Assembly (NCBI RefSeq): GCF_028898845.1
Contig: NZ_CP118574.1
Coordinates: forward strand, 7,179,001 to 7,243,000
Reading direction: 5' to 3'
Length of the DNA: 64,000 bases
Source: Streptomyces sp. WZ-12
GTDB lineage: Bacteria > Actinomycetota > Actinomycetes > Streptomycetales > Streptomycetaceae
Within the stretch, counting starts at the first letter, position 1; each line of letters opens with the position of its first letter. The notes beneath the pieces are model-generated. The model had not been told where the DNA came from. It worked only from the letters and a program-made list of their open reading frames with translations, and did no database searches. The position numbers were made by a program, and so were the translations under genes. Below are positions 14,744 through 33,845 of the stretch, piece by piece.

Positions 14744-15190
14744 ATGACCTCGCTTGCCATCGGACAGCTCTGGACCTGCAAGGACCTGCGCCGAGCTGGA
14801 CGCACCCTACGCGTCGCGGCTTTCGACGATGAGAACGTACACGCAGTTGTGGTCACCAATCGCCAGGACGTCCAGGCGCTCGTTGATGCCGGCCGCACTG
14901 ACCTCGACCGGCGCGGCCAGCACACCACCATCTTGCGGCGCCGCTTCGCCGCCGATTGCTACCGACTCGTTGCCCACGCGCCTCAGAACACTCCCGGCGA
15001 CACCGTGGTCCGGTTGCCCCAGACATGTACGGACTACGGCACCCACAAGTGGCTCCCCATCCAGATACTCGGGGTACAAGGGCGGCCATCGATCGTCCGA
15101 CTGGTCTGTACGAAATGCTACGGCCACACCCAGCGGGTATCGCCCTACCTGGCCAACGCAGCCGTCGTCTCCGGCGACTTCGCCGCATGA
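14744..15190 (+). CDS. Hypothetical phage protein
   Basis: A 148-residue protein starting at ATG 14744 after GGAGCC. The N-terminal half is a beta-rich segment (GQLWTCKDLRRAGRTLRV); the C-terminal half has a VCTKCYGHTQRV Cys pair and an upstream QTCTDYGTHKW that together could coordinate zinc. I do not recognise the family. It overlaps the RuvC-like gene start by four bases. Confidence 0.6.
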   Translation: MTSLAIGQLWTCKDLRRAGRTLRVAAFDDENVHAVVVTNRQDVQALVDAGRTDLDRRGQHTTILRRRFAADCYRLVAHAPQNTPGDTVVRLPQTCTDYGTHKWLPIQILGVQGRPSIVRLVCTKCYGHTQRVSPYLANAAVVSGDFAA

Positions 15191-15771
15191 GCAGTGCCAA
15201 CTACCCCTACGTGGGCATCGACCAGTCATACTCCGGATTCGCCCTCGTGATCTACTGCCACCCCAGCGAGATCTACGTGCCCAAGTCCCGTAAATGGGAG
15301 GCGAAACGATACACCTCCCAATCAGACAGACTGGCCCACATTTACCAGGACCTCCAACTCCTCCTGTCCGAGGTCTACTGCGCACACGGAGGCATATCCC
15401 TCATCGCGATGGAGGGCTACGCCCACGGGGCGAAGTTCCAACGCGAAGCCCTAGGAGAGCTTGGCGGCATTGTCAAACTGACCATATCTGAGATCGCTGG
15501 CCAACGACCCTGGCGCCACCCGCTGATTATCTCGCCACCCACCCTCAAGAAGTTCACCACAGGAAAGGGAACAGCCACCAAGCAGGAGATGATGGACGCC
15601 GTACGCAAGCGCTGGGGCGCATCCGTCTACGACGACAACCTTGCTGACGCCTACGCCCTAGCCCGAGCCGCCGCCGTCTGGCATACAGGCCAGGGAACCG
15701 AAGAACAGCTCAACGCCTTGCAGCACATGAAGCCACAGTCCACCAATGGCCCGCTCGGCAAGACCGCTTAA
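15187..15771 (+). CDS. RuvC-like Holliday junction resolvase
   Basis: A 194-residue RNase H-fold nuclease. The first acidic residue is in VGIDQSYSG, the second in IAMEGYAHG, and the C-terminal acidic pair is in DDNLADAYALARAA. This is the RuvC/phage resolvase signature. It probably resolves branched phage replication or recombination intermediates. A host-type ruvC is present separately at 63030. The start overlaps the previous stop (ATGA) and a strong terminator follows. Confidence 0.85.
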   Translation: MSSANYPYVGIDQSYSGFALVIYCHPSEIYVPKSRKWEAKRYTSQSDRLAHIYQDLQLLLSEVYCAHGGISLIAMEGYAHGAKFQREALGELGGIVKLTISEIAGQRPWRHPLIISPPTLKKFTTGKGTATKQEMMDAVRKRWGASVYDDNLADAYALARAAAVWHTGQGTEEQLNALQHMKPQSTNGPLGKTA

Positions 15772-18207: not shown

Positions 18208-19305
18208 ATGAGCACACGTTGGATACCCGAGGCCGAGGACCTGGGAAACGGCCGTATCGGCGGCGACATGGACTCGCCTGGGCGGCCTGCCCGAGTGGTC
18301 TGGCACTCCACTGAGAGCGGCGACGGCGACCAGGCATTCGACAACGTTGCCTCCTGGCTCATCCAAAGCCAGGCACAGCCCCACTTCCTCTACGACCCGA
18401 GCACCGACCGGCTCGGTCAGTTCGGAGCGATGGACTTCTCGGCCCGAGCCCTGCGCAACGACGGCTCGACCCGGACGAACCGCACCGGCTCCGCCTGCAT
18501 TCAGATCGAGGTCCTCGCCCGAGCCGCCAGCCCCTTCACCGACTACTGGAAGCCGGGCCCGAACTTCCAGGCACTGCTGAAGGCAATCAGATCCTGGGGA
18601 ATCCCAGACGAGTTTCCGATGGGCGATCCACCGTCGTACCCCGGCGGCTCCCGACGCGACCGGGGCATCTGGCTCAGCGAGGGCGGCCACTACTGCCACT
18701 CGAATGTCCCAGGCAACGACCACGGAGACCCAGGGGCCATTGATCCGGTTGCGCTCTTCAAGGCAGCCCCAGGCAGTGGCCAGCCCAGCAAGCCCAAGCC
18801 GCCGCCAGACAACCTGGGCCACTACCAGGTCACCATCGACGGCGTGACATACGGTTCTGGCGCGTACGGCAGCCACGTCACCCGCGTCGGCCAGGCCCTG
18901 GTCGCCAAGGGATTCGGCGGCTCCTATGCCGAAGGGCCTGGCCCGCGCTGGACCGACGCCGATACCAAGGCGTACGCCGCCTACCAGAAGAGCCTGGGCT
19001 TCACCGGCAAGGACGCAGACGGCATCCCCGGACCGAAGACCCTGCGGGCACTCATCGGCTCGACCAACACGTCCTTTCCGGGCCGCGACGCAGTCAGGTA
19101 CGGCTCCAGCGGCCCCCAGGTCCTCGCCGTGGACCAGGCCCTGACCCGCCACGGATACGGCCGGTACCTCACCCACGGGGCCTCCGACTATTACGGCAAC
19201 ACCACCAGAGCCGCCGTCCGCGCATTTCAGCTCGCCCAGGGCTGGAGCGGCAGCGACGCCGACGGCAACGTCGGCCCGGCCACCTGGCGGAGGCTGATGC
19301 AGTGA
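18208..19305 (+). CDS. Endolysin: Amidase_2 with two peptidoglycan-binding domains
   Basis: A 365-residue N-acetylmuramoyl-L-alanine amidase. The catalytic domain (residues about 10-190) has WHSTES (H33), PHFLYD (H59) and HGDPG near residue 175, the zinc-binding and active-site positions of the Amidase_2 family. Two C-terminal PG_binding_1 repeats (about 205-278 and 290-365) carry the motifs DADGIPGPKT and DADGNVGPAT. It degrades host peptidoglycan at lysis. The gene has a GAGGAAA ribosome site, and two small membrane proteins follow as likely holin components. Confidence 0.93.
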   Translation: MSTRWIPEAEDLGNGRIGGDMDSPGRPARVVWHSTESGDGDQAFDNVASWLIQSQAQPHFLYDPSTDRLGQFGAMDFSARALRNDGSTRTNRTGSACIQIEVLARAASPFTDYWKPGPNFQALLKAIRSWGIPDEFPMGDPPSYPGGSRRDRGIWLSEGGHYCHSNVPGNDHGDPGAIDPVALFKAAPGSGQPSKPKPPPDNLGHYQVTIDGVTYGSGAYGSHVTRVGQALVAKGFGGSYAEGPGPRWTDADTKAYAAYQKSLGFTGKDADGIPGPKTLRALIGSTNTSFPGRDAVRYGSSGPQVLAVDQALTRHGYGRYLTHGASDYYGNTTRAAVRAFQLAQGWSGSDADGNVGPATWRRLMQ

Positions 19306-19949: not shown

Positions 19950-20579
19950 ATGTCCCGAAAGCTCGCCGCCGCACTCTTGCCCGCGATCACCGCAACCGCG
20001 CTGGCCGTCTCCACCGGACAGGCATCCGCCCGATCAGACCCCAGTGACGCCCCCGCAGCTCCTCCAACTCAGGCTCCCGAGAAGTCCTCCCCGAGCACCT
20101 ACACAGTCCGCGCAGGAGACACCCTGAGCCTCATTGCCGAACGCCACCTCGGCGACAGTCGCCGATGGCCACACCTGTACGAGATCAACAAGGACACCAT
20201 CGGCCCCAACCCGGATGTCATTCAGCCAGGCCAACGCCTTACGCTCCCGACCAGCCATCGCAAGCCCTACACGGGCGAAGCCGAGCGAAAGACCACCACT
20301 CCCCGTCACGCCAAACCGAAGGCCACAGCCACAGACGCTCGAAATGGCATGTGGGATCGACTCGCCCAGTGCGAGTCCTCAGGGAATTGGTCCATCAACA
20401 CCGGCAACGGCTACCACGGGGGACTCCAATTCGCCCTGAGCACCTGGCGAGAGCACGGCGGCAAGGGCATGCCGAACGAAGCATCCCGCGAGGAGCAAAT
20501 ACGCATCGCTGAAAAGGTACTGGCAGACCAAGGACCCGGCGCATGGCCCATCTGCTCGTACGAAGCCGGAATGCGATAA
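19950..20579 (+). CDS. Secreted LysM-Rpf (resuscitation-promoting factor-like) protein
   Basis: A 209-residue secreted protein. Residues 1-28 form a signal peptide (AAALLPAITATALAVSTGQASA). A LysM domain at about 50-99 (YTVRAGDTLSLIAERHLG) binds peptidoglycan. Residues 134-203 are an Rpf/transglycosylase-like domain: WDRLAQCESSGNW holds the catalytic Glu142, and C141/C202 can form the family's disulfide. In Streptomyces such enzymes remodel cell wall at germination. In the phage it may help DNA entry through the wall or reactivate dormant hosts; that is inference. It could also be a cargo gene acquired from the host. Confidence 0.88.
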   Translation: MSRKLAAALLPAITATALAVSTGQASARSDPSDAPAAPPTQAPEKSSPSTYTVRAGDTLSLIAERHLGDSRRWPHLYEINKDTIGPNPDVIQPGQRLTLPTSHRKPYTGEAERKTTTPRHAKPKATATDARNGMWDRLAQCESSGNWSINTGNGYHGGLQFALSTWREHGGKGMPNEASREEQIRIAEKVLADQGPGAWPICSYEAGMR

Positions 20580-20605
20580 CACCCCACCCGCCTGTTAACA
20601 GACCA

Positions 20606-20640
20606 GTCGGCTCGCCCCATAGCGTGAGCGGCGAGCCGAC
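20606..20640 (+). terminator. Hairpin between Rpf-like and next gene
   Basis: An 11-bp perfect stem (20606-20616 with 20630-20640) and a 13-base loop, without a strong T run. It may be a terminator or a translation-control hairpin before the gene at 20663. Confidence 0.5.
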
Positions 20641-20662
20641 ATCCAACCAAAGGGGAAGGTCT

Positions 20663-21172
20663 GTGATAGACGAGAACATCCGGCTGCTGCTGTGCCACAA
20701 CTGCCACACCATAGAAGAACTACCCGACTACGACGGAAACCCCGACGAGGACCACTTGCTTGGCAATCTAGTCAACAGGCACGCGTACCCCGATGGGACA
20801 AAGCATCGAGGACACTTGATGAAGGTGCCGAAGAAGTACTGGGAGAAGACGCACTACAAGGACGAGATCGTCAAGAAGATCAACGATACCGTCGCTAAGG
20901 GGGGAAGCGACGGGCTCGGCACTGAGTACTACAACACACGTGACGCCTTCGGAACTGACGCCTTGCAGTGCTTCAAGCGCCACCACCGCAACCTCGACTG
21001 CTCCGACTGGAAGAGCGACAAGGTGCGCCTGACCCCCGGAACCGTCAAGGAGCGCAAGGCCGCCGGCCTGCCCAAGTACCGCTCGCCAAAGGACCGTTAC
21101 CTCTGCGACTTCTGCCCTGTGGCCAACGCCGTACGGCAGAAGCACTTCGACAAGACCGCACCGAAGGACTGA
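20663..21172 (+). CDS. Hypothetical Cys/His-rich phage protein
   Basis: A 169-residue protein with a GTG start behind AAAGGGGAAGG. It has CHNCHTIEELPDY at the N-terminus and CDFCPVANAV near the C-terminus, with further Cys and His residues between (LQCFKRHHRNLDCSDW), so zinc binding is likely. I recall similar actinophage proteins of unknown function. It lies just before an HNH endonuclease. Confidence 0.65.
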   Translation: MIDENIRLLLCHNCHTIEELPDYDGNPDEDHLLGNLVNRHAYPDGTKHRGHLMKVPKKYWEKTHYKDEIVKKINDTVAKGGSDGLGTEYYNTRDAFGTDALQCFKRHHRNLDCSDWKSDKVRLTPGTVKERKAAGLPKYRSPKDRYLCDFCPVANAVRQKHFDKTAPKD

Positions 21173-21173
21173 C

Positions 21174-21491
21174 ATGGCCTCAACCAAGAAGAAGCAGACC
21201 CGAGGACAGCAGATCCTCGACGGCAAGAAGGGCGCGGAAAAGGGAATCGCCCGCACCAAGAAGGGCTACTCCAGCGTCCGTGACCCGAAGACCGGCAAGG
21301 TCACCTACGGATACCGACTCGTCATGGAACAGAAGCTAGGTCGAAAGCTACGCAGCGACGAGACCGTGGACCACATCAACGGAAACCACCACGACGACAG
21401 TCCGTCAAATCTGCGCGTTGTAAGCAGGGCAGAGAACACGCGGTTGATGCACAAGCGACGGGACAAGAAGAAGGGCACCGAGAAGAAGTGA
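21174..21491 (+). CDS. HNH endonuclease
   Basis: A 105-residue protein with a basic N-terminus. The nuclease core is YRLVMEQKLGRKLRSDETVD followed by HINGNHHDDSPSNLRVVS, the HNH_3 pattern with the DH and N residues of the active site. It may act as a free-standing homing endonuclease or in packaging; HNH proteins near cohesive ends often do the latter. It ends the plus-strand late run before the minus-strand cargo block. Confidence 0.85.
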   Translation: MASTKKKQTRGQQILDGKKGAEKGIARTKKGYSSVRDPKTGKVTYGYRLVMEQKLGRKLRSDETVDHINGNHHDDSPSNLRVVSRAENTRLMHKRRDKKKGTEKK

Positions 21492-21607
21492 TCAACTACA
21501 ACACGCGAATCGGTCACCAGGTGCCAACCACTGGGAAACCAAGGGGAACAGCTCATCCGGACCGAAGAACCAAGCCGCCCCACGAACACTAGGGGTTTGG
21601 AGCTCGG

Positions 21608-22375
21608 TCAGCCGTAGGGGCCCTTGTCGTGTGCGCCAAGCAACCGCTCAATCCGACTGCCAGCGCCGGAGAGGACGTGCGGAGGCATCGTGTAGTTGAT
21701 GAAGGGATAGAACCGCTGGCTGATGAAGCGCCGTCCGTACGCGGTGGTCAGCACATAACGGGTGCGGCCTGTCTCGTTCTGCGCTCCTCGGTGCCATGTC
21801 TGACTGTTGACGAGGTAGCAGTCACCAGTCTGCGCCCGGAGCGACACCGGTTCCCATCCGGCTGGAAGGTCCGGAGAGCGTTCTGGCCGGCGACCGGAGA
21901 GGTGACTTCCGGGTGCCACCTGCGTAGGGCCAAATGCGTCCGTGGGGACGTCGCTGAGCGCGATCATCACGTTGAGACTGTAGACAGGCACGTGCTTCGG
22001 GTCGATGTTGAGATCAGCGAAGAACGGGAAGAACAAGGCGTCATCAATGTGCCAATTCACGATTCCGCGACCTGTGGGAGTCCTCAGAACGTTCTGCGAA
22101 ATCACATGACAGTCGTCACCGAGAAGCGCTTCAACGACTTGGATGACGGGTTCGAGTGCCAGCACGTCGCGGAAGGCCGTACCGAACTCGAAGGCGCGCA
22201 TGAGGCTCACCCCGCCACGCAGGGTGTCACGGTCGGGTGGGTCAGCCACGCATGCTCGGTAGCGGCCCTCGGCAAGATTCCGCATCAGTTTCACCTGATC
22301 AGGCGGAAGGACGGAGCGGAACACGGTGAACCCCTGTTGCCGGAACTCTTCGGCGTGAAGATCCAAGGTGTTCAC
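21608..22375 (-). CDS. PhyH-family Fe(II)/2-oxoglutarate dioxygenase
   Basis: A 255-residue protein with start GTG 22375 after AAGGAGGG; a TTG fifteen bases upstream is possible. It carries the iron-binding HxD in NWHIDD and the distal His in WHRGAQNETGRTRYV, where the Arg would bind 2-oxoglutarate. Such enzymes hydroxylate small molecules or peptides. Here it ends a minus-strand block with a GRDP-like protein, a short peptide and an APH-fold kinase. The substrate is unknown. It interrupts the plus-strand phage gene order and is probably cargo. Confidence 0.85.
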   Translation of the reverse strand: MNTLDLHAEEFRQQGFTVFRSVLPPDQVKLMRNLAEGRYRACVADPPDRDTLRGGVSLMRAFEFGTAFRDVLALEPVIQVVEALLGDDCHVISQNVLRTPTGRGIVNWHIDDALFFPFFADLNIDPKHVPVYSLNVMIALSDVPTDAFGPTQVAPGSHLSGRRPERSPDLPAGWEPVSLRAQTGDCYLVNSQTWHRGAQNETGRTRYVLTTAYGRRFISQRFYPFINYTMPPHVLSGAGSRIERLLGAHDKGPYG

Positions 22376-22408
22376 TCCGCCCTCCTTCAACTCCTGGGCC
22401 CATTGCGC

Positions 22409-22966
22409 CTACCGGTAGTTCTCTTCGGGTACGAAGGGTTGGACGTGATCGGCGCCGACCCAAATCCGGTTACTGAAGTCCTCGTAGTGCTCGGGATGCA
22501 GCAGGAACGCGTGCCACACCATGTCTACGGGGCCGGACGGGGCATTACTCTCTTTCGGGTAGATCATCGAGAGAGCAACGAACTGGCGGAACTCCTCAAT
22601 GAGGGGAATGACGTAGGTGGCGAAGAAGTAGTCGCGGAACTTCACCGCCTTTTCGTCATCGACGCCTTCGAAGTCCCCCTCGGATGGGTTGAAGGTCAGC
22701 CATTGCTTCATGACCTCCGCGCCCCAGTTGCGGCAGTGCTTATCCCATTGACCGAACCAGAGCAACATTGGTAGCACTTGCTCATTGTCGAACAGTCGGC
22801 CATCCCGTAGGAGTCGACGGGGGCTCAACCCGAGCAGGAGAAAGCCTAGGTCGTACCCTTCCAGGAGCTTGAGTCGGTCCCGTATCTCGTCGCTGATGTT
22901 TGGCTTCGCAGCGACGCAGGGGCCAACGAGACTGTCCTTTGGAGCGATGAGCGTGATCTTGTTCAC
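22409..22966 (-). CDS. Protein with GRDP/DUF1399-like C-terminal motif
   Basis: A 185-residue protein with a GTG start at 22966, directly downstream of a small peptide gene (three-base gap). The C-terminal VDMVWHAFLLHPEHYEDF resembles the WHxHxLxPxxY motif of glycine-rich-domain/DUF1399 proteins, and an earlier cluster of aromatic residues (PMLLWFGQWDKHCRNW) is notable. No catalytic role is known. Its tight spacing between the peptide and the PhyH gene suggests a shared pathway. Confidence 0.6.
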   Translation of the reverse strand: MNKITLIAPKDSLVGPCVAAKPNISDEIRDRLKLLEGYDLGFLLLGLSPRRLLRDGRLFDNEQVLPMLLWFGQWDKHCRNWGAEVMKQWLTFNPSEGDFEGVDDEKAVKFRDYFFATYVIPLIEEFRQFVALSMIYPKESNAPSGPVDMVWHAFLLHPEHYEDFSNRIWVGADHVQPFVPEENYR

Positions 22967-22969
22967 CGG

Positions 22970-23143
22970 TTACGACGCAACCGCAGGGGCGACGCTGTAG
23001 CACTTGGAACATGTCTGGTCGTTTTCCGGCCAGAACCGGTCACTGCGGGCGCCGAAGACCGCCTCTATCCGGGCCTTTGTCTCCTTGTAGACCGGCGCAA
23101 ACGCGTCGCCCGTCTGTTCGTTCGCGGGAACGTGACCTCGCAT
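22970..23143 (-). CDS. Small peptide with Cys/Ser tail, candidate modified-peptide precursor
   Basis: A 57-residue open frame not obvious in standard gene calls. It starts at ATG 23143 behind a purine-rich AGAAGGGCGG stretch and ends three bases before the next gene. The first 40 residues are charged and leader-like (PVYKETKARIEAVFGARSD); the last 14 are TCSKCYSVAPAVAS, with two Cys and three Ser. Its place between an APH-fold kinase and a PhyH dioxygenase recalls ribosomal peptide clusters such as class V lanthipeptides and thioamitides. However, no HopA1-like lyase, YcaO or other known RiPP enzyme is present here. It could instead be a small zinc-binding protein. Confidence 0.5.
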   Translation of the reverse strand: MRGHVPANEQTGDAFAPVYKETKARIEAVFGARSDRFWPENDQTCSKCYSVAPAVAS

Positions 23144-23224
23144 GGATTTCCGCCCTTCTTCTCTCGGAGAGATCTTGCGTACCGGGGAAGGCTAGGTGCC
23201 ACCGGACCGCCCCGTGAGGGGCTT

Positions 23225-24163
23225 TCAGGACAAGTCGAGTCGGCTCTTCGCCCACTCCCACGCCGCCTGAGCTGTCCGTTTCTGCAACGCACGCAGGTGC
23301 GGGAGTCCCGGCATAGGGGCCGCCCTGCTGCATGCCTCCCAATGCCCGGCCAGGGCGACGACGAGAGAGGTGACAGCTTCCTCCGGTACGTCGCCCAGCA
23401 GAGGGGCGACGACGGCTTCCGCGCTCTTGGGGCTGTGACCAGCCAGCACCAGGTGAGGTACCAGAAACACCCCTTCAAGCCAGGAAGCCCCTTGCCGAGA
23501 GCAGGACCAGTCAATGAGCACAGGGCCGGAGGAACGCTTGAGGATGTTGTCTGGCCGCGTGTCGAGGTGTACCAGCGTGTCACCGACTGCGTGCTTCTCC
23601 CATGTTCGTTCAATCGCGATCAGCCTCGGCAGGTTCTCGACCATGAGCGGGTCCAGATCCGGGGGCATCTCCTCCTCAAGCTCTTGCCAGCACGCCAGGG
23701 CTCGCCCCATGAGATCAACTACCTGCGGTGCGTCCGGAAGAGGACAAGGTGATAGCACGCCGGCCAGATGCCCGAGGGTGGCCACTAGGTCCGATACGTC
23801 TGGTGACCCGGGCGACAGGTCGACGTGACCACCGCCGATGTCCTCCGTGCACAGCAGTACCCAGCCAACTCCGCCGGAGGGAAGGGACGACCACAACAAA
23901 TGGGGAAATGGGCCCTCCGGAAGGGCCGCTGTCAGATATGTCTCCGTCGCGTACACCCGCTCAAGCGCGTGGCCAGCTGGCACGCCCTTCACGAAAACAC
24001 GGCGGCCGTCGTCCAGCTCTAGCCGGCACGCCATCCCCTCCGTGTAACCGCCGCTGACCGTCTGAGCGTTGGCCACCTTCGCTTCGAGACGCTTCTCGAT
24101 GTAGTCACGTACAGGGGCTGGAACGGCTTCCCAGTCGGGCCGGACCGTGGTGAGTGAGGTCAT
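23225..24163 (-). CDS. APH-fold phosphotransferase
   Basis: A 312-residue kinase-fold protein. The catalytic loop is LVHLDTRPDNIL (HxDxxxxN) and the metal-binding motif is VLIDWS, as in aminoglycoside phosphotransferase-type enzymes. The N-terminal lobe has RRVFVKGV with the ATP-contacting Lys. I place the start at ATG 24163, although the frame is open to 24235. The substrate is unknown; it need not be an antibiotic. It is the first gene of the minus-strand cargo block and is divergent from the WXG100-like gene. Confidence 0.8.
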   Translation of the reverse strand: MTSLTTVRPDWEAVPAPVRDYIEKRLEAKVANAQTVSGGYTEGMACRLELDDGRRVFVKGVPAGHALERVYATETYLTAALPEGPFPHLLWSSLPSGGVGWVLLCTEDIGGGHVDLSPGSPDVSDLVATLGHLAGVLSPCPLPDAPQVVDLMGRALACWQELEEEMPPDLDPLMVENLPRLIAIERTWEKHAVGDTLVHLDTRPDNILKRSSGPVLIDWSCSRQGASWLEGVFLVPHLVLAGHSPKSAEAVVAPLLGDVPEEAVTSLVVALAGHWEACSRAAPMPGLPHLRALQKRTAQAAWEWAKSRLDLS

Positions 24164-24487
24164 AGTCAGCAACCGTAGAGACCTGCGTCGTGAGCGTCGG
24201 GCGGATTGCTCAATGATCACCCAGACGACTCCCACGGCTGAAGGCCAGCCTCACCGCCGTCGACACCGCTCACGAGCGCCCGCACCTTCGGTGGGGGCAG
24301 CGGAAGTCTGCTGCCGGGCATCCGCATTGGGATTTCCAGCCACCGGCTTGGCTGCATCTGACTGCCCAACGTTCGCAATAACGGCGAAATGGGGCGCAGG
24401 TTGACGGTCGCCAATCGGGCACGAGCACTGTCAGAGGTACAAGGTAGGTTCGTGCTGGACCTGAAGGCATGCTGCTTGGGGGGATTC
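24164..24487. promoter_or_regulatory. Divergent intergenic region between cargo block and toxin cassette
   Basis: This 324-base gap separates the minus-strand kinase gene from the plus-strand WXG100-like gene and must hold both promoters. A TTGACG hexamer at 24401 is a possible -35 for the plus-strand transcript, but I see no well-spaced -10. Otherwise I see nothing certain in it. Confidence 0.35.
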
Positions 24488-24817
24488 GTGGCCGCTTCTG
24501 GCTTCGACGTCGACACAGACCAACTGAAGAATGAAGCACCGAAGTTCGGCAGAGAGTCAGCCGCTTTGGCGAAGGCGATAGAGAAGCTGAAGCACTCACT
24601 CGATGGCCTCGGCGAGCCATGGGGAAACGACGAACAAGGGCAGAAGTTCGAGGGTGTTTACAGCCCGCATCGCGCCCAAATCGAGCGCGCCGCCCATGCG
24701 TTGGTGAAGGGCCTGGAGAGCATTCACACGTCCATGAGCGACATGGCAGATAACCACGAGGAAACGGATCGCTCCAACGCCTCTGGTCTCAAGTCGCAAG
24801 GGGGTGGTGCGCATTGA
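24488..24817 (+). CDS. WXG100/ESX-like small helical protein
   Basis: A 109-residue protein starting at GTG 24488 behind GGGGGGATTC. Two helices flank a turn with GEPWGNDEQG, which corresponds to the WxG turn of WXG100 proteins exported by type VII secretion. It overlaps by four bases the start of a large toxin-like protein. The pair suggests a chaperone or co-exported partner for the toxin. Confidence 0.75.
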   Translation: MAASGFDVDTDQLKNEAPKFGRESAALAKAIEKLKHSLDGLGEPWGNDEQGQKFEGVYSPHRAQIERAAHALVKGLESIHTSMSDMADNHEETDRSNASGLKSQGGGAH

Positions 24818-26121
24818 GTGCTGCGGACAAGGCCAAGGAGATCGTTCAGGATCTCACCGGCATGTGGTGGCCGAAGGGTGATGAAGACGAACTTCGAGAA
24901 GCCGCTCGCGCCTGGCGGACATTTGCTGATGACGTCAAGGACATCACCTCTGCGACGCACAAGTCCGCGCAGGACGTCATCGACAACAACAAGGGTAAGT
25001 CCATTGAGGCGTTCGGCGAGTTCTGGCGCAAGTACCACGGCGGGGGCAAGGGGTACCTGGATGATCTCGCCTCCGCTGCGGAGGACATGGCCAAGGCCCT
25101 AGACAAGTTCGCCGACCAGATCGCCACAGCGAAGAAGAAGATCGAGCACGAACTGGAGATCGCGGGCGCGGTCCTGGTCGCCGGTACAGCCCTGGCCGTC
25201 TTTACCGGCGGAATCAGTGAGGTCGCCGCCGCAGGCGCGACCGCGACGCTTGAGGCGGCTGCGGCCGCTGCGGGCGTTGCCGTCTCTGCCACCATCACCG
25301 AGATCGCCGGCACCGTCCTGGCCACCGCGGCGATCGGCGGCATCGAGGCCATCACGGTGGACGTGGTCGTCGCCCAAGGCGGTAGGAATCTGCTCGGTGA
25401 CCAGCACGGGATCAATCTCGCAGAGGCCAAGGATTCCGCTGTCTCCGGCGTGCTTTTGGGTGGTGCTGTCGGCGGAGCAGCACGTGGCATCAAGGCCGTG
25501 GCCGACGCTGGCGGCGTCAAGAACGTCCTCGGCGGAATGAAGCTGGAGGGCTTGGACAACCTCACCAACCCACTGGCCGGCCCGCGCGTAGCGATGGCAA
25601 GCGAAGGTCCCGTCGGCCCGACTGGGCAGCCCCTGATGCGCAACGCCGACGGAGGCGGCGGGGGTGGGGGAGGCCGCGCTTCATGGCCAGCAGGAGAGCA
25701 TGTCCCGGGGCCCGCACGAGGTAAAACGATCAAGGCTCCAGCCGATCGGCATTTCTGGGGTGGGGTCAAACGTGGGCCAGCAAAGGACAGCAACACTGTG
25801 GTGCTGCCAGGATATAACCAGGCAGTCAAGGACGACATCGGTGAGATCGCATCTGGTAAGGCAGCGTGGAACCAAAAGACGCAGGCGTATGACATCAACG
25901 GCCGCTCGTACAAGGTCGAGTCATCCGGTACCGTATTCCCCGTATCAGGGTCCGGCCTTGTCAACCTGAGCCGTGCTGAATATGGCGCCTTGGGCGCCAT
26001 TATGCGAGCCGACGGCGACTTGACCCAGTGCGAGAAGTTCTTCGCCAACGCCAAACAATTCAAGGACGAACCTCACGCCGTCCAGGTGGCGATCGATCTA
26101 TACAGGACGTACCAACTATGA
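24814..26121 (+). CDS. Polymorphic toxin-like protein with WXG100-like N-terminus
   Basis: A 435-residue protein with a TTG start in the TTGA overlap. Residues 1-110 are helical and WXG100-like (LREAARAWRTFADDVKDI; FWRKYHGGGKGYLD). Residues about 115-200 are very Ala/Gly-rich and hydrophobic. A Gly-run hinge (residues 284-291) precedes a C-terminal domain of about 130 residues (HFWGGVKRGPAKDSNT onward) that I do not recognise. This layout (export module, hydrophobic spacer, variable C-terminus) is that of type VII polymorphic toxins. The following gene is placed as an immunity gene. Confidence 0.7.
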   Translation: MSAADKAKEIVQDLTGMWWPKGDEDELREAARAWRTFADDVKDITSATHKSAQDVIDNNKGKSIEAFGEFWRKYHGGGKGYLDDLASAAEDMAKALDKFADQIATAKKKIEHELEIAGAVLVAGTALAVFTGGISEVAAAGATATLEAAAAAAGVAVSATITEIAGTVLATAAIGGIEAITVDVVVAQGGRNLLGDQHGINLAEAKDSAVSGVLLGGAVGGAARGIKAVADAGGVKNVLGGMKLEGLDNLTNPLAGPRVAMASEGPVGPTGQPLMRNADGGGGGGGGRASWPAGEHVPGPARGKTIKAPADRHFWGGVKRGPAKDSNTVVLPGYNQAVKDDIGEIASGKAAWNQKTQAYDINGRSYKVESSGTVFPVSGSGLVNLSRAEYGALGAIMRADGDLTQCEKFFANAKQFKDEPHAVQVAIDLYRTYQL

Positions 26122-26972
26122 TGTGCACCCTACTGACGACCGGTAACGGAGTCCTCGAACGTATCGCTCCAGTTCTGGCCCGCTTCTTTGGAACCGTTGC
26201 GGACGACGTCGATGTCTGCGATGCGTGGGATCTCGAAAATCGTAACTGGGATGCCTCGATTAGTTGCGAGTACATGGCGCTCGGTGGCGAACTCAGCTGG
26301 TCTCTCGCCATCGCCACCGATGACACACCTCATCTGTCTGAAGAAGATCTCGCGTTGACAGTAGCGCGCGAGTTGGGAATCGTCGTCATCTTCGCTTCCG
26401 ACTACAAAGACATCTCGTGGATCGATCGCGCCGCGACGCCCGCAGGTGAGGTGTGCTACGTCAACACCGAACAGGAAGAGGCTGAGCCTCCCCGGTGGAG
26501 AGTGGCGGTCTCCGAGATCAACATCCCCGAATTCCCCAACGCGGAAGTCCGCCGCATCCCAGAAATCATCAAGCAACTTCAACTGCCAACCCCCATCACC
26601 GATTCCTGCATGCCCAAGGAACACCCGCAGCCAGAAATCTTCTATCCACTGCTCAACTGGGAACGGCTTACGGTCCGCATGAAGATGGACTGGCCCCCAT
26701 CGGCCTGGTACCCAGCCTCCATGTACGTGGAGGACCTGGAACTACGCGACCAGCTCGACGACGTGATCGCGCAACTGCCTCCGGCGGACCAACAGCCGGT
26801 CAGAGAAGCCGTGGAGCAGGTAGACCAGATGTATCGCGCTCTCACTCACGATGACGGCGGCAGAAATTTGGCCGAGGCAACAAAGGCGCCAATCACCGAC
26901 CGTCCGTGGTACTGGTACAGGCGCCCGCTTAACCCCCCGTGGGACAACCCCGGCAAGCAGCCGCTGCGCTGA
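26118..26972 (+). CDS. Probable immunity protein for the upstream toxin-like protein
   Basis: A 284-residue protein starting at ATG 26118, overlapping the toxin stop by four bases. It is predicted cytoplasmic, acidic, alpha/beta, with no signal peptide. The N-terminal half (LSWSLAIATDDTPHL; LTVARELGIVVIFASDY) resembles small immunity-type folds seen after polymorphic toxins, but no family is identified. The call rests on coupling and position. A 20-bp perfect terminator follows, closing the cassette. Confidence 0.6.
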   Translation: MMCTLLTTGNGVLERIAPVLARFFGTVADDVDVCDAWDLENRNWDASISCEYMALGGELSWSLAIATDDTPHLSEEDLALTVARELGIVVIFASDYKDISWIDRAATPAGEVCYVNTEQEEAEPPRWRVAVSEINIPEFPNAEVRRIPEIIKQLQLPTPITDSCMPKEHPQPEIFYPLLNWERLTVRMKMDWPPSAWYPASMYVEDLELRDQLDDVIAQLPPADQQPVREAVEQVDQMYRALTHDDGGRNLAEATKAPITDRPWYWYRRPLNPPWDNPGKQPLR

Positions 26973-26974
26973 CA

Positions 26975-27017
26975 CGAAGTGCCCCGCCTCCGAACTATTC
27001 GGAGGCGGGGCACTTCG
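26975..27017 (+). terminator. Strong terminator after toxin cassette
   Basis: A 20-bp perfect stem (26975-26994 with 26998-27017) with a 3-base loop. It separates the cassette from the region holding the decayed nucleotidyltransferase copy and would also act on minus-strand transcripts. Confidence 0.85.
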
Positions 27018-27045
27018 GTGCTGGAAAGCTCAGCTCCTCGACGAG

Positions 27046-27175
27046 ACTTGACCCAATCTCTTCGATGGCACACAGCTCAAAACGAAAATCCGCGACTGAA
27101 TTCTGGGCACCCTGCGAGACTTCTTCCACGACACCCCGGGCTTTGAGCAATAGGCCGGCGTATGGCCGGCGACGT
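27046..27175 (+). pseudogene. Decayed fragment of a second nucleotidyltransferase-like gene
   Basis: Reading CTC TTC GAT GGC from 27058 gives a peptide that aligns with residues 41-79 of the intact protein at 27790: LFDGTQLKTKIRD, stop, ILGTLRDFFHDTPGFEQ, stop, AGVWPAT. The intact gene has Trp at both stop positions (TGG changed to TGA and TAG). One base is missing just before, so the reading frame shifts there (LDPNLFDG in the intact gene). The match stops at the start of the convergent gene at 27176. This is a clear remnant of a paralogue, not the source of a protein. Confidence 0.85.
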
Positions 27176-27700
27176 CTAGGAGCGGTATGCGGACAACGGC
27201 TCGCCGACGTCGACCAACATGCTCTCGTCCACGCCATGCTCAAGCCAGAGTCGCATGAGGGATGAAGCGAACAAGAGCCCACCATCCATGAAGAACTCGT
27301 TCGCATCAATCACTAGGTAAGGCACCTTCCATTTCACAGGCAACCCTACATAAGAAGTGCCGACACTTTCCCACGTGGTCTCCAACAGTGCACCGTCCTC
27401 GTTGACGCACCAGGCGTGCTCGGTCGGGAAAAAGGACGATGCGAAGCCCTCGACATATGTCAGTCCCTCGGCCACCGACACCTCAGCTGAGTTGTGGTAA
27501 CAACGCCTAGCTGGCCCTGGTTCGCTCACGGGAACCGCCAACTCGGGGCGAAAGACGCGGCCGTACTCCAGCAGAACCTCAGCTCCGTGAGCAAAGCGCC
27601 ACCCGTCAAAACGACCACGAGCATTAGACCGCCCAACCTCGGCCAACAACTCGATGTAGCGCACCGTGCTCTGAGTGTCACTACTGCTTTCCACGCCCAC
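27176..27700 (-). CDS. Hypothetical protein, possibly immunity or phage accessory protein
   Basis: A 174-residue protein with start GTG 27700 behind GGGAGGGG. The core CYHNSAEVSVAEGLTYVEG and EHAWCVNEDGALLETTW (Cys, then His-Ala-Trp) resembles a family of actinobacterial and phage proteins with a papain-like or transglutaminase-like look (Cys...His...Asp). The activity is unproven. It is convergent with the toxin cassette and divergent from the nucleotidyltransferase operon. Confidence 0.65.
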   Translation of the reverse strand: MGVESSSDTQSTVRYIELLAEVGRSNARGRFDGWRFAHGAEVLLEYGRVFRPELAVPVSEPGPARRCYHNSAEVSVAEGLTYVEGFASSFFPTEHAWCVNEDGALLETTWESVGTSYVGLPVKWKVPYLVIDANEFFMDGGLLFASSLMRLWLEHGVDESMLVDVGEPLSAYRS

Positions 27701-27789
27701 ACTGACCCCTCCCTGTGATGGCTGTCATCCTACAACGGGCAAATTGAGCCACTAACACTTGACCAAGGACCACTCGTAGCGTCGCACCT

Positions 27790-28773
27790 ATGAGTGGCCC
27801 CAACGCTTTCTACAACCACCTCGCCAAAGCGGCACACGACATCGGTACGCCGGGTCACGCTGGCCGCAGCGGATATTTCTCCGCACCAGCCGGTCACCTC
27901 GACCCAAACCTCTTCGATGGGGACCAGGTCAAGCAGGAACTCCGGAGCTGGATCACCCGCACACTTCGCGAATTCTTCCACGCGACCCCCGGAATCGATC
28001 AGTGGGCAGAGGTATGGCTAGCGGGATCAGGAATCTCCTACCAGTGGGAAGCTGATCGAGGGAACGGCGACCTAGACGTGCTGATCGGCGTGGACTATTC
28101 AAAGTTCACCCACTGCAACCCCGCCTATGCAGGACTATCCTCCGAAGAAGCCGCACAGTTCATCAACGACTCTCTCCGGAAAAGCCTTTGGCCTAAGACT
28201 GCGAACACGCGAATCGGCACGAACACCTACGAGGTCACCTTCTACTGGAACCCTGCCAAGGGCGTACGGGACATCACCGCCATCCACCCCTACGCCGCAT
28301 ACAGCCTGACCCGTAACCAGTGGACTGTCCGTCCTCCCGAACTGCCCCAAGACCCACGCCGTCTCTACCCCAGCGAGTACACCGACGCCGCTGACATCGA
28401 CGAACAGCAGGCTCGATACCTGATCGACCGCTACCGATCCCTCCAACGCCAGCTCACACGCCTCACCAAGGCATCTCCGGCCTGGATGAACGCAGCCACT
28501 GAACTCAAGAACACCGTCGCCGAGGCTGCCCAGCTCTTCGACTCCATCCACACCGGCCGCCAGCAGGCATTCACCCTCAACGGAGACGGCTACTCCGACT
28601 TCACCAACTTCCGCTGGCAGTCAGCTAAGGAACGCGGAATCGCCACAGCCCTCCGAGAAATCAAGAACATCGGCACCACCGCCCATGAGCTCACCGACAC
28701 CGAACTCTACGGACAACCAATCGCTGACGCGCGACACGCTCTCATCAACGCAGCACTGTGGGGCAAGCGATGA
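27790..28773 (+). CDS. Nucleotidyltransferase-fold protein
   Basis: A 327-residue protein. A GSG turn (79-81) is followed at a suitable distance by D94-L-D96 in GNGDLDVLIGVD, the G[GS]...DxD motif of the polymerase-beta-type nucleotidyltransferases. A third acidic residue is less clear; EVTFYW or RDITAIH may supply the strand. The C-terminal half is helical, with GDGYSDFTNFRW near 260. It could modify RNA, protein or a nucleotide, or be a defence-type synthetase; I cannot choose. It is followed by two coupled genes (ATGA and GTGA overlaps), and a decayed copy lies upstream. Confidence 0.7.
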   Translation: MSGPNAFYNHLAKAAHDIGTPGHAGRSGYFSAPAGHLDPNLFDGDQVKQELRSWITRTLREFFHATPGIDQWAEVWLAGSGISYQWEADRGNGDLDVLIGVDYSKFTHCNPAYAGLSSEEAAQFINDSLRKSLWPKTANTRIGTNTYEVTFYWNPAKGVRDITAIHPYAAYSLTRNQWTVRPPELPQDPRRLYPSEYTDAADIDEQQARYLIDRYRSLQRQLTRLTKASPAWMNAATELKNTVAEAAQLFDSIHTGRQQAFTLNGDGYSDFTNFRWQSAKERGIATALREIKNIGTTAHELTDTELYGQPIADARHALINAALWGKR

Positions 28774-29261
28774 ACATCGTCATCACCGTTGAAGGCATCC
28801 TCCGAAACACCGACAACGACGCGCTCATCTCAACAGGCAGCGGCATCTACCACTCCTTCGCCGCCCACCACAGCGTCTACCTCATCTCCGACGACGCCGA
28901 TCACGACGCCGCCCGTCGCTGGCTGCGACTCCACGGACTCGACCGCCACATGAAGGTCATCCAGAACAGGCTGACCAACGAGTGGCGCTCCACAACTCAA
29001 GTCCGCCTCGACGCCGTCGGCCAACTGTCCGGCACCGGCGCAAAGGTGGACCTCATCATCGAGCCCAACCCAGCCATCACGGCAGAACTCCTCGCCCTGG
29101 GCTACCCGATAGCCACCATCACACTGCCTCACTTCGCCCGACCGGAATGGCGACCCGACTACGCCCAGACCCCCCGCCCCTGGGATGACCTCATCGCCGA
29201 AGCGCGACTCCAGGCTGACGCACACGCGGCAGACCCCCGACGCACGGCGGAGCCCCTGTGA
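28770..29261 (+). CDS. Degenerate HAD-like protein
   Basis: A 163-residue protein coupled to the gene before it by ATGA. The N-terminus MNIVITVEGILRN, followed by a hydrophobic helix and SVYLISDDADHDAARRWLRL, resembles a HAD-fold hydrolase. The usual first catalytic Asp-x-Asp is replaced by Thr-Val-Glu-Gly, so classic phosphatase chemistry is unlikely. It may be a fold-only partner for the nucleotidyltransferase or the next gene product. Confidence 0.6.
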   Translation: MNIVITVEGILRNTDNDALISTGSGIYHSFAAHHSVYLISDDADHDAARRWLRLHGLDRHMKVIQNRLTNEWRSTTQVRLDAVGQLSGTGAKVDLIIEPNPAITAELLALGYPIATITLPHFARPEWRPDYAQTPRPWDDLIAEARLQADAHAADPRRTAEPL

Positions 29262-30544
29262 AGCTCTACCTCGCAGGCACAGAATTCCCTACGTACCGCC
29301 GCCTGCTCGCAGCCGAAGGACACGCGGACGTCGCCCTCTCCTACACAGGGCTGCGTAAGCGCCGCAAGGTGGACAAGCCCCTGCTCCTGGCCGAGCAGTT
29401 CGAAGACAGGGCGCAGATCCTCCTCGACTCCGGCGCCTACAGCCTCAGCGACGAGCTGTCGTCCGAAGAGCTCCGCGCCATGACCGACGCCTACTACACC
29501 AACCTTGTTACGCCGAACGTGGATCGCATCGAGTTCTTCACCGAGTTCGACGCGCAGAATCTGGGGGAGGACGAGCGGGAACGCTGGCGCACATGGATGA
29601 CCAGCCACAAGGACAAGGCAGTCGTCGTCTGGCACCCCGGCCAGGACCTCGCAGAGCTCAGTGTTCACTGGCCCAACATCGCAATCCCGAAAGATGCAAT
29701 CGACGACCACCTCGTCCGTCGACTCAAGTCCCTCCTCCGGGAGAACGACATCCGGCTCTTCGGCCTGGGCATCACAAAACCTGCGGTCATGGAACGCGTC
29801 CCGTTCCACGGGGTGACGAGTACCAGCTGGCTCAGCCCGTCCCAATTCGGGGAGACCATCTGGTTCTCCGGCGGAGAACTGCGCCGCTACCCCAAGAAGA
29901 TGAAGGAGAAGGCACGAAAGCGACATCGACAGGAGTTCAGCGACGCCGGATTCGACGTCGACCTTATCGAAGCTGACGACGCGACCGAAGTACTCCGAGT
30001 CTCGATCTACGCCTGGGCCCGCTACATGGACAAGCTCAACGCTCGGAGCAGGGGAGTAAGTACACACGTGGAAACGCCATCTCCCGAAAACACGGATCTG
30101 ACCCCCCAGACAGTTGATCCCCAGGACCTGGAGGGCCGGCACGGGAGAGTAACTTCCCTGCCTTCCTGGCGACGAGAAGAGCCCATCTGCGTACGCACCA
30201 AGGAACAGCTCGCCGACGCCGAGGCCAGTGTCCTAGAACTCCAGCTCGGGCGCGTCTACAAGCGAGCACGACAGGAGGAGTCGTACCAAGACGGCGAACT
30301 CGACCCGGTCCTGTCCGAGGAAATCGACAGGTTCAGCACGCTAATTACCAAGAAACGCAAGGCAGATGAGACGTCCTTCAGCATCTCCATCAAGGCATCT
30401 CAGAAGGGTGAGGCGCAGACCGGTTTGATTTCCCGACTCTTCGGCCGTGAGGACGACGCCCAGGCTAAGGCCCTACCAGCTCCCGCCGCAGTACCCCAAC
30501 AGAAAGACATAGTGGACGCAGAGATCATTGAGGACGCCACATGA
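29258..30544 (+). CDS. TGT/DpdA-like protein (putative guanine transglycosylase fold)
   Basis: A 428-residue protein with a GTG start overlapping the preceding stop. Residues 1-260 resemble the TIM-barrel of tRNA-guanine transglycosylase and the phage DNA transglycosylase DpdA. ILLDSGAYSL (57-61) matches the DSGG/DSGA motif with the general acid Asp, FGLGITKP (168-175) corresponds to the GLAVGEP-type motif, and VTSTSW (186-191) is near where TGT has its nucleophilic Asp. Residues 260-428 are an unrelated charged region. No preQ0 or preQ1 synthesis genes are in the window. Function in base exchange on DNA or RNA is inferred. Confidence 0.55.
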   Translation: MKLYLAGTEFPTYRRLLAAEGHADVALSYTGLRKRRKVDKPLLLAEQFEDRAQILLDSGAYSLSDELSSEELRAMTDAYYTNLVTPNVDRIEFFTEFDAQNLGEDERERWRTWMTSHKDKAVVVWHPGQDLAELSVHWPNIAIPKDAIDDHLVRRLKSLLRENDIRLFGLGITKPAVMERVPFHGVTSTSWLSPSQFGETIWFSGGELRRYPKKMKEKARKRHRQEFSDAGFDVDLIEADDATEVLRVSIYAWARYMDKLNARSRGVSTHVETPSPENTDLTPQTVDPQDLEGRHGRVTSLPSWRREEPICVRTKEQLADAEASVLELQLGRVYKRARQEESYQDGELDPVLSEEIDRFSTLITKKRKADETSFSISIKASQKGEAQTGLISRLFGREDDAQAKALPAPAAVPQQKDIVDAEIIEDAT

Positions 30545-30699
30545 CGAGTAAGTACGCAAGGGCAACGACCACTTGGAATCACAGTCTTGAAGGACGCAAC
30601 CTCATCGAGCGCCCATGCCCACGCTGCCGAGGTCGCTATCCCGAAATCGATGCCTGCGTCGAATGCGAAGGAAATGGAACAGTGCTCATAGGTCACTAA
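30541..30699 (+). CDS. Small DnaJ-type zinc-finger protein
   Basis: A 52-residue protein coupled by ATGA to the TGT-like gene. It has one CPRCRG and one CVECEGNG motif, as in half of a DnaJ Cys-rich domain, so it can bind one zinc. It is the last gene of the four-gene run from 27790, and a terminator follows at once. Too short for common gene callers. Confidence 0.7.
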   Translation: MTSKYARATTTWNHSLEGRNLIERPCPRCRGRYPEIDACVECEGNGTVLIGH

Positions 30700-30707
30700 C
30701 CAACCAA

Positions 30708-30733
30708 GAAGGGCCCGGCGAACCGGGCCCTTC
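30708..30733. terminator. Bidirectional terminator
   Basis: An 11-bp stem (30708-30718 with 30723-30733) with a CGAA tetraloop, between convergent genes ending at 30699 and 30741. It can end both transcripts. Confidence 0.85.
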
Positions 30734-31447: not shown

Positions 31448-31594
31448 ATGGAGCGACACGATCAGCGATGCAGCGAGCAGCAGTGTTGGGATTCCTTCTG
31501 GACAGTGATTGCCCACGCTGCGATCGAACGGCAGAAGAGGTGGGCACAGGACCAGCAACCAATCCAGCCCCCACCTCTCAACGGCTCTGCCTAA
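31448..31594 (+). CDS. Small protein convergent with the integrase
   Basis: A 48-residue frame starting at ATG 31448 after CGGGAG. It is rich in Gln, Trp and charged residues (ERHDQRCSEQQCWDSFWTV). Its stop TAA (31592-31594) overlaps in opposite strand the integrase stop (31591-31593). It could be a small regulator or directionality factor; this is speculation from position. Coding status is moderate, as no promoter is identified. Confidence 0.45.
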   Translation: MERHDQRCSEQQCWDSFWTVIAHAAIERQKRWAQDQQPIQPPPLNGSA

Positions 31595-33339
31595 ATGACT
31601 TCATCCGCAGGGTGTATCGACTGGGGCGGGGCGAGCCTGTCATGCTCCGCCGCCCAGAGCGGAACTACGCGAATCCTGGGCTTACTCCGCTTCTTCTCCC
31701 GGTACACCCAGAAATGCGAGATCACAGTCGACAGGGCCTGACGCTTCCGTGAATACGTCATGTGCTCCCACTCCTCAACCAAGCCGAGGAATCGGGCCTG
31801 CGCAGGCCGCAACGCAGTCACCTTTACGGACGAACGCTCTAGACGCTCCCTAGCCGCAGAGATATCTAGCTCAATGCGTTGCTTCTCCTTGACGTACTTG
31901 TCCTCGTCGATGATTCCCTTCGTGTAGCCGCGCACCAAACGAGAGGACTCCTCGTCTAGTTCCTGGAGCTGCTTAGCTGTCTCTTCTTGCTCGTCGGCTG
32001 AGCCCCTCAAGGCGAACTGGTCCTTCGCTGCGGTTATCTTCTCATTGACCGACGCCTCGCCTACAGATTGCTTCGCCAGCCAGTCGAGCAGTTCCTTCTC
32101 CGCCCGCGCGACGCCGATTGAACCGCTTCCTGTGCAGTCCTTGTACAAAGCTCCGTGAGTGCAGCGGAAGAAAACAGTGTGAGGATTGCGGTCTCCGTTC
32201 GGTAGCGGCGGATGTTGCTCCATCCTCTCCTTGCCTCGCGAGAAGGCACCCTCATTGCGCCCACAGATTGCCGGCTTCCACTGGCCGCGCTCACGAGTGA
32301 TCTCGAAGAGTCGTAGCCCCGTGCAGCGAGCCAGGCCAGAAATGCTGTACTTCGGATCATGATGCGACTTGGGGAGCTGAGGCGAACCGAAGCGCTTGGA
32401 CAGATAGGTCAGCCAGAGCAGCTCGCGCTCATTGGGGTCCTCGATGACAGACTCGTGCGCCCCGGCCTTCCAGACGTCGAAATACTCCGGACGGGAGCTA
32501 CGATAGTAGTTCTTTCTTCCTTCACGGACGACCTTCTTATCCTGGAGGATCTTTTCCTTGGAACGCCAGCGAACCCAACCAAGGCTGAAGCCACTGTCCA
32601 GCCACTTGTACATCTGTGTTGACGTGATCCGCTCTCCACTATCCGTCCGGAATCCGCGCTGCCACAGGTCATCGCAGATACGTTTCATTGGCTCGTTCTG
32701 GAAAGTGAAGCGCCGCCACGCCTCGGCGAGCACACCCTTCGTGGCAGGGTCCAGCTTCTGGATTCCCTCACGGCACTCGTTACACTTGTTGCGACGCTCA
32801 CCCGGCTCATTCGGCGGACACGTAAAGCAAATCTTGTACCCGAACGTCTTGAAGCCGCTGTGGGGGAGCCCCTTCTTGCGTCGGTATTTGTGGGCGGACT
32901 GCCAGTTCTCACCGATCTGGTCGGACTGGAACTGAGCCCAGCCGAGCATCTGGGTGATCTGGAGACGACCGACACTCGTCTTCCCGTCGAAGTCCTCCGT
33001 CGCCGCACGAACATCGCCGCCTGCTTTGTAGATGCGCTCGATGTTCAGCAGGGATTCAAGGGTGTTACGACCAAATCGGCTCCACTTCCAGAGGAGGACG
33101 ACCTCGATGATGCGCTTCTCTACGTCCTCGACGAGAGTGCTGATCTGTCGCTCTTCGAACTCTCGCCCGGAGAGGCCGAGGTCCTGAATCGGCTCTGCTA
33201 CCTGCTCGATGTTCTCGCGTATGGCAAGGCCATCGATCTCGTCGTGCTGAATTTCCGGGCTGATCATGTCCCGGCGTTTCTTCGAGACGCGGATGTACCC
33301 ACGTCCCTTGCGGCGCGGCTTGTCCCGCACGTCGACCAT
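31591..33339 (-). CDS. int: Large serine integrase
   Basis: A 582-residue phage integrase; start ATG 33339 is eight bases from a GAGGGG site. The resolvase domain begins at GRGYIRVSKKR, which includes the catalytic Ser, and continues with LLWKWSRFGRNTLESLL. A recombinase domain follows, then a zinc ribbon region (CTGLRLFEI...FFRCTHG) and a coiled coil (LQELDEESSRLV). It recombines attP and attB without host factors. It reads toward the phage interior and its start abuts the host methyltransferase remnant, so the attachment site lies within about 80 bases upstream of its start. Confidence 0.95.
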   Translation of the reverse strand: MVDVRDKPRRKGRGYIRVSKKRRDMISPEIQHDEIDGLAIRENIEQVAEPIQDLGLSGREFEERQISTLVEDVEKRIIEVVLLWKWSRFGRNTLESLLNIERIYKAGGDVRAATEDFDGKTSVGRLQITQMLGWAQFQSDQIGENWQSAHKYRRKKGLPHSGFKTFGYKICFTCPPNEPGERRNKCNECREGIQKLDPATKGVLAEAWRRFTFQNEPMKRICDDLWQRGFRTDSGERITSTQMYKWLDSGFSLGWVRWRSKEKILQDKKVVREGRKNYYRSSRPEYFDVWKAGAHESVIEDPNERELLWLTYLSKRFGSPQLPKSHHDPKYSISGLARCTGLRLFEITRERGQWKPAICGRNEGAFSRGKERMEQHPPLPNGDRNPHTVFFRCTHGALYKDCTGSGSIGVARAEKELLDWLAKQSVGEASVNEKITAAKDQFALRGSADEQEETAKQLQELDEESSRLVRGYTKGIIDEDKYVKEKQRIELDISAARERLERSSVKVTALRPAQARFLGLVEEWEHMTYSRKRQALSTVISHFWVYREKKRSKPRIRVVPLWAAEHDRLAPPQSIHPADEVI

Positions 33340-33470
33340 CGGGATGCCCCTCGTGTGTGTCGGATGATCCTTTTTCACACACGTGTTGGCTTGGTAGTTA
33401 ACTTGTGCCACCGACCAACATCGGCGCCATCTTCCGCAGCGCCGCGGCCCTCGGGATGGACGCGGTCCTC
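33340..33470. other. Probable attR junction
   Basis: The integrase start (33339) and the first codons of the truncated methyltransferase (from 33405, encoding PPTNIGAIFRSAA) bracket this interval. A serine integrase needs only a 2-3 base crossover core, so no long direct repeat is expected. The host half should lie in the codons for the conserved PTNIGAIF segment. The exact core needs the left end of the element or an unoccupied relative. Confidence 0.65.
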
Positions 33471-33845
33471 CTCTCCCCGGACTGCGCCGACCCCCTCTAC
33501 CGCCGCTCGGTGAAGGTCTCCATGGGCGCGGTGTTCTCCGTCCCCTACGCCCGGTTGGAGAGCTGGCCGCGCGACCTGTCCGCCGTACGGGAGGCCGGTT
33601 TCCGCCTCCTCGCCCTGACCCCGGCCGAGGGCGCCACCGACCTCAACGAGGTGGCCCCGCACGCCCTCGAACGCGTCGCCCTCATGCTCGGCGCGGAGGG
33701 CGGCGGCCTCACCACGGGCGCCCTCCGCGCCGCCGACGCATGGGTCCGCATCCCCATGGCCCACGGCATCGACTCCCTCAACGTAGGCGCAGCCGCCGCG
33801 GTCTCCTTCTACGCGGTCACCGCATCCCCACCCTCAACGAAGTAA
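33405..33845 (+). pseudogene. 3' remnant of TrmH/SpoU-family RNA 2'-O-methyltransferase gene
   Basis: A 146-residue open frame representing the C-terminal SPOUT domain: NIGAIFRSAAALGMDAVLLS, then LMLGAEGGGL and IPMAHGIDSLNVGAAAAVSFY, the family's SAM-binding knot motifs. The N-terminal substrate-binding domain is missing, as expected if the phage integrated into the gene. The 5' part should be at the far left end of the prophage. A GTG at 33405 could start a truncated protein, but this is unlikely to be an active enzyme by itself. Excision would restore the gene. Confidence 0.85.

Follow-up and report, generated by a model that had tools for sequence, protein, structure and literature searches.

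We describe a four-gene operon in a 64,000-nucleotide stretch of Streptomyces sp. WZ-12 (contig NZ_CP118574.1, positions 7179001-7243000 of a 9.5 Mb genome; hereafter the window), within a prophage of about 109 kb. At 27790-30699 in the window lie genes for a nucleotidyltransferase-like protein (NT), a HAD-like protein (HAD), a relative of the phage guanine transglycosylase DpdA (TGT) and a zinc-finger peptide. Alignments of relatives show a conserved phage module, made up of a DpdA-derived protein with a small-terminase-type C-terminal domain and a Pnkp-like HAD, both without their nucleophiles, and usually NT. We give a probability of roughly 40% to the reading that TGT and HAD form a binding complex, with NT as catalyst, which helps to process the phage genome at a stage between recombination and packaging.

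The four genes are joined by 4-base overlaps (ATGA, GTGA and ATGA, in gene order), just as a preliminary description of this DNA had proposed. The module of the closest relative found, that of Streptomyces sp. UNOC14_S4 (84-85% identity in TGT), has three 4-base overlaps as well. A terminator had also been proposed after the last gene; a strong hairpin is present there, but because it lacks a T-run, its role as a terminator is plausible rather than shown.

The third protein is a DpdA/TGT homologue by profile comparison, in agreement with the relation first suggested by its motifs. DSGAY (57-61) and FGLGITKP (168-175) are found where they had been described, as is VTSTSW at the DpdA nucleophile site. 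The DpdA-like domain spans residues ~1-260 and is followed by a terminase-small-subunit-like C-terminal domain at ~309-428. TGT matches phrog_887 with E=4e-42. The module TGT profile gave E=2.1e-15 with a profile of four DpdA proteins whose phages have preQ0 genes (hhalign, for which E-values here refer to single pairs), E=5.5e-13 with Salmonella 7-11 DpdA and E=1.5e-9 with Bipper DpdA alone; unrelated profile pairs used as controls gave 0.06, 0.08 and 0.55. There was no useful direct match between E. coli Tgt and TGT, which align only at DSG (14 columns), and a sequence search of the PDB set with TGT found no useful relative.

Before residues were counted, duplicates were dropped by residues 20-140 of each protein; near-identical rows (e.g. 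L040/L041) were retained, and the rows are not independent. Loci L014, L015 and L018 were excluded from the module rows, L014 and L018 being re-added to the TGT rows as comparators, and L043, cut at the contig end, has no nucleophile column. Exclusions of families cover the families listed in the VIA tables.

We take the Asp at the aligned column to be the TGT nucleophile, the DSG acid to be the catalytic acid and the FD/LD Asp to be a base-pocket residue. Not one of the 29 informative module rows has Asp at the nucleophile column (A 11, S 12, T 4, H 1, G 1). The column is D in both Bacteroides-type rows and, in a separate alignment, in 11/11 comparators, which come from 10 hand-picked phages (Bipper, Sonali gp87, Megan gp2 and gp3, Salmonella 7-11, RHEph04, PEAT2, Vibrio K396, phiFN37, BS162P1 and gut phage L018; the short Sonali gp81, annotated as queuine tRNA-ribosyltransferase, was omitted). 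The FD/LD Asp (D98 column) is kept in 32/32 rows, and the Glu two residues before it (E96) is invariant in 30/30 module rows, with Asn in its place in both Bacteroides-type rows. The DSG acid (D57 column) is D or E in 28/30 module rows. Thus the putative recognition residues persist, whereas the residue for exchange has been lost. Modification of phage DNA or tRNA bases, an early suggestion, is therefore not supported in the form of guanine exchange; TGT probably has a purpose other than base swapping, for which it recognises DNA or RNA that contains guanine.

A separate observation concerns the DpdA of human gut phage L018 (2518-4716), which is interrupted directly after the nucleophile Asp-Ser by an apparent intein of ~424 residues; a QueE-like gene lies downstream of the split gene.

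No preQ0 synthesis genes had been noticed near the operon, and the same holds for its relatives: QueD (PF01242) and QueC (PF06508) were each unmatched in 24/24 module records, some of them fragments (controls positive in 3/3 and 2/3). The host genome has no PF01702 match and no QueF (PF14489) match; two partial QueC matches occur in long frames, and one PTPS/QueD-like gene is found at contig 7641001-7641381, outside and far from the prophage. A rule that the Asp tracks the phage's own preQ0 genes was weakened by Salmonella 7-11, which keeps the Asp with neither a QueC nor a QueD match.

Compared with phage DpdA (Hutinet et al. 2019, PMC6884629), the module TGT has a homologous domain by profile comparison and keeps the DSG acid and the LD/FD base-pocket Asp. 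Unlike it, the module TGT has no nucleophile Asp, no QueC or QueD match in the record, an extra TerS-like C-terminus, a constant HAD partner and usually NT. For singleton phage DpdA, found without synthesis genes, that paper asks whether function has diverged. The module TGT is likewise a DpdA relative without synthesis genes, but it does not keep the Asp, whereas singleton-type comparators do (Salmonella 7-11; also PEAT2, Vibrio K396 and phiFN37, where the sequence stretch obtained contains no synthesis gene). The question can thus be taken up with a coherent group where a change is readable from sequence, because every informative row lacks the nucleophile, HAD is constant, and QueC and QueD were not found. 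Two of the six phage records with the module carry the annotation ‘queuine tRNA-ribosyltransferase’ or ‘dpdA-like’, names that would point to modification of DNA or tRNA.

Structure models were made for NT and HAD. The model of the second protein supports a HAD fold of the Pnkp 3'-phosphatase type, with resemblance to Pnkp, including that of the Pnkp1/Rnl/Hen1 RNA repair complex. Pfam over 21 HAD members returned nothing useful, and a sequence search of the PDB set with HAD found no useful relative. The earlier claim of a missing catalytic Asp pair holds exactly for the window copy, where T6 takes the place of the first Asp (the nucleophile) and E8 that of the second; for the family it is half right, as the nucleophile Asp is present in 0/29 rows and the second Asp in 19/29. 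In its replaced nucleophile (29/29 rows) and in having no kinase domain, HAD differs from the T4 Pnkp 3'-phosphatase domain and bacterial Pnkp1.

NT is apparently an intact nucleotidyltransferase, usually upstream of HAD-TGT, and likely the catalyst of the module. The GS...DxD motif noted earlier is present (G79 S80, D94 D96) and conserved in 26/26 rows. The predicted structure has a weak N-terminal fold match (Z 5.3-5.8) to HI0073, 1ylq, 3wfq (tRNA processing enzyme) and cGAS. There are weak matches to TUT1 and to ‘tRNA processing enzyme’ as well, the latter presumably a CCA-type enzyme; the NT sequence had no match of use in the PDB set. NT has the GS...DxD motif in common with these Pol-beta nucleotidyltransferases and resembles them at low Z in its N-terminal part, but differs in its long helical C-terminal half. 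Of the folds expected for the three proteins, the HAD fold and the TGT homology are supported, whereas for NT the motifs are present and the fold match is weak.

A tblastn search of a phage collection with NT and with TGT returned the same six records, representing five Streptomyces phages: BRock (two records), GiJojo, LuckySocke, Alone3 and pSt2308. In these phages HAD and TGT are separated by an extra gene, X, which in pSt2308 is divided between the two ends of the record. Alone3 and LuckySocke (host S. lividans) are cultivated, and so the module is directly testable. Viral contigs scanned with the three alignments yielded 10, 15 and 3 loci; an earlier viral scan using a single protein as query gave no match. 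HAD and TGT lie together, on one strand and within 1.6 kb, in 28/28 IMG/VR loci (in L043 the contig ends within TGT), a set in which BRock appears three times and some other contigs appear twice. The expected linkage in other phages thus holds for HAD and TGT; it is incomplete for NT, present in 22/28 of these loci. Among 392 genomes of the same genus, including that of the window, three have NT, and none of the plasmid records has TGT. As the gene set recurs in other contigs, the operon is not a chance assembly. The preliminary description knew of no system with this gene set, and we met no description of the module in the open-licence literature searched.

Gene order is broadly maintained among relatives as RuvC-F11-F10-F8-F7-F6-(lysis)-F3-(F13)-NT-HAD-(X)-TGT-(Zn), and the module is therefore part of a conserved block, which virulent BRock, this prophage and other contigs all carry together with the module. 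In the window and in UNOC14_S4, several kilobases of other genes separate the module from the rest of the block.

The C-terminal domain of TGT resembles small terminase subunits (TerS). Residues 340-433 of BRock TGT match the terminase small subunit phrog_6902 (E=0.0064), and the reverse search, with TerS of phage Mbo2, gave a weak match to phrog_887 (E=0.055). With seven TerS proteins, the module TGT profile aligned over 132 columns (hhalign, E=1.4e-7). A zinc knuckle of identical spacing, C-x2-C-x5-C-x8-C, is present in TerS and in 24/30 module TGT rows, two rows being cut before its position. The Mbo2 TerS search matched 115 phage records, and 56 of the 60 listed match only from residue 243 on, the conserved C-terminal part. 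TerS of Gordonia, Rhodococcus and Tsukamurella phages (phrog_6902, phrog_16015) thus have the knuckle and a helical C-terminal part in common with TGT, but differ from it in their N-terminal part.

From the constant HAD-TGT pair, its loss of both nucleophiles, its retained recognition residues and its terminase-type domain, we infer a binding complex in genome processing. TGT and HAD would form a nucleic-acid-binding complex, in which the DpdA-like pocket would read guanine or a modified guanine without exchanging it and HAD would dock a strand end or phosphate. The C-terminal domain would tie this complex to DNA or to the packaging or recombination machinery, and NT, when present, may supply the chemistry, transferring a nucleotide onto a nucleic-acid end or a protein partner. 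A more specific version, tentative and rather unlikely, is a new kind of phage nucleic-acid transaction: the DpdA barrel and the Pnkp phosphatase, once catalysts and each now without its nucleophile, would form a complex that recognises guanine and an end and is fused to the small-terminase domain, and NT would mark or cap the recognised end, licensing genome processing or packaging.

Several observations weigh against a binding complex in genome processing. Beyond homology, linkage and residue loss we are inferring, and activity and binding are predicted. NT is absent in 6/28 loci (four distinct records, with none in 4/4 such records searched whole), so the module does not need it in every case. 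The window copy, UNOC14_S4, L019 and L020 have no zinc knuckle. The clearest points are three. The large terminase subunit (TerL) is encoded at contig 7136219-7137784 and TGT at 7208258, about 70 kb apart, whereas the fetched small terminases adjoin TerL in 6/7 cases. Docking of a TerS-type domain would favour related TerL proteins in GiJojo and Mbo2, but BLASTP found no similarity in this one pair compared. Finally, in two Bacteroides-type phages, a similar C-terminal domain has its own gene, directly following that of a DpdA with the Asp, and both records have QueC and QueD matches; this arrangement also fits a general DNA-binding role, and together these three points allow a plain DNA-binding role. 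In the seventh small-terminase record, Gordonia phage Gmala1 (L061), the gene after the small terminase is annotated as DarB-like antirestriction, not as a large terminase.

The same observations bear on the possibility that TGT is itself the phage small terminase, its DpdA-derived domain reading the packaging site and its C-terminal domain docking the motor, with HAD and NT as accessories. The C-terminal homology to TerS favours this, as does the scan around GiJojo TerL, where 0/7 other proteins match a TerS PHROG at E 0.1; several nearby proteins (gp56, gp57, gp60, gp63, gp66 and gp67) lie outside that scan, however, and with the distance from TerL, the dissimilar TerL pair and the four members without a knuckle, we consider it unlikely. 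It is likewise unlikely that TGT still modifies bases, via the D57 acid, the module-specific E96 or a non-covalent route, acting on a base other than free 7-deazaguanine, while the substituent is made or transferred by HAD and NT. The conserved base-pocket acids, E96 in every module row and the linkage with a nucleotidyltransferase would suit such a role, but they have to be set against the loss of the nucleophile in 29/29 rows, a non-acidic D57 column in 2/30 rows, the loci without NT and the lack of QueC, QueD, PF01702 and QueF matches described above.

A role in tRNA maintenance, with Pnkp-like, TGT-like and CCA-enzyme-like parts acting on phage or host tRNA, would explain the likeness of HAD to Pnkp of the RNA repair complex and the weak matches of NT to TUT1 and ‘tRNA processing enzyme’. 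The annotation of GiJojo includes RNA ligases and a polynucleotide kinase, and 29 tRNAs are reported for BRock (PMC7453282) and 29 for GiJojo (PMC11465772). However, there is no tRNA gene at window 1-33400 or contig 7099001-7179000 and the module has been kept all the same, and the C-terminal domain points to DNA packaging, which makes this role improbable. Defence or counter-defence, also suggested in the preliminary description, is the most improbable of these alternatives. An ArdA-like gene does lie 2.5-2.9 kb downstream of TGT in GiJojo, LuckySocke and Alone3, but this reading has little support because the genes belong to the conserved phage block and no PADLOC match is credible, the sole one (Cas10b, 15.1 bits, E=0.0012) being judged spurious.

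The prophage is a low-G+C stretch extending from contig ~7,103 kb, a left end based on G+C only, to window 33.4 kb. Homologues of annotated GiJojo proteins include the large terminase (54.6% identity), the major capsid protein (61.9%), portal, scaffold, tail sheath, tube, baseplate, helicase, primase, DNA polymerase, RecA and RuvC, and their order largely follows that of GiJojo. The SpoU methylase gene fragment at the right end is probably the attachment site. Features of the window are listed in Table 1.

Table 1. Features of the operon and its surroundings (window positions)
Feature	Position	Strand	Remarks
RuvC-like resolvase	14956..15771	+	start of conserved phage block
Endolysin	18208..19305	+	member of conserved block
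Gene F3	20543..21172	+	conserved block; shortly upstream of NT (or HAD) in relatives
Decayed second NT gene fragment	27049..27189	+	model positions 36-83, internal stops, E=1.2e-5
NT, Pol-beta-type nucleotidyltransferase-like, 327 aa	27790..28773	+	GS (79-80), DxD (94-96)
HAD, Pnkp 3'-phosphatase-like, 163 aa	28770..29261	+	ATG at 28770; T6, E8 replace Asp pair
TGT, DpdA-like, 428 aa	29258..30544	+	GTG start; T187 at nucleophile position
Zinc-finger peptide, 52 aa	30541..30699	+	CxxC...CxxC; DnaJ/anti-TRAP-like cysteine pattern, weak matches
GC-rich hairpin 3' of last gene	30708..30733	+	-24.7 kcal/mol, z -5.3
Serine integrase	31591..33411	-	right end of prophage
SpoU methylase gene fragment	33405..33845	+	model positions 12-142 of 142, beside serine integrase

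The stretch between the conserved block and NT (21339-27790) may be a cargo site, since UNOC14_S4 too has several kilobases of other genes there. The decayed NT fragment upstream of the intact gene is perhaps a trace of cargo arrival. Within this stretch are an APH-family gene (23225-24235, minus strand) and two WXG100-type genes (24389-24817 and 24814-26121). The longer of the two has a C-terminal extension, which to us recalls polymorphic toxins, and the next gene could presumably encode immunity.
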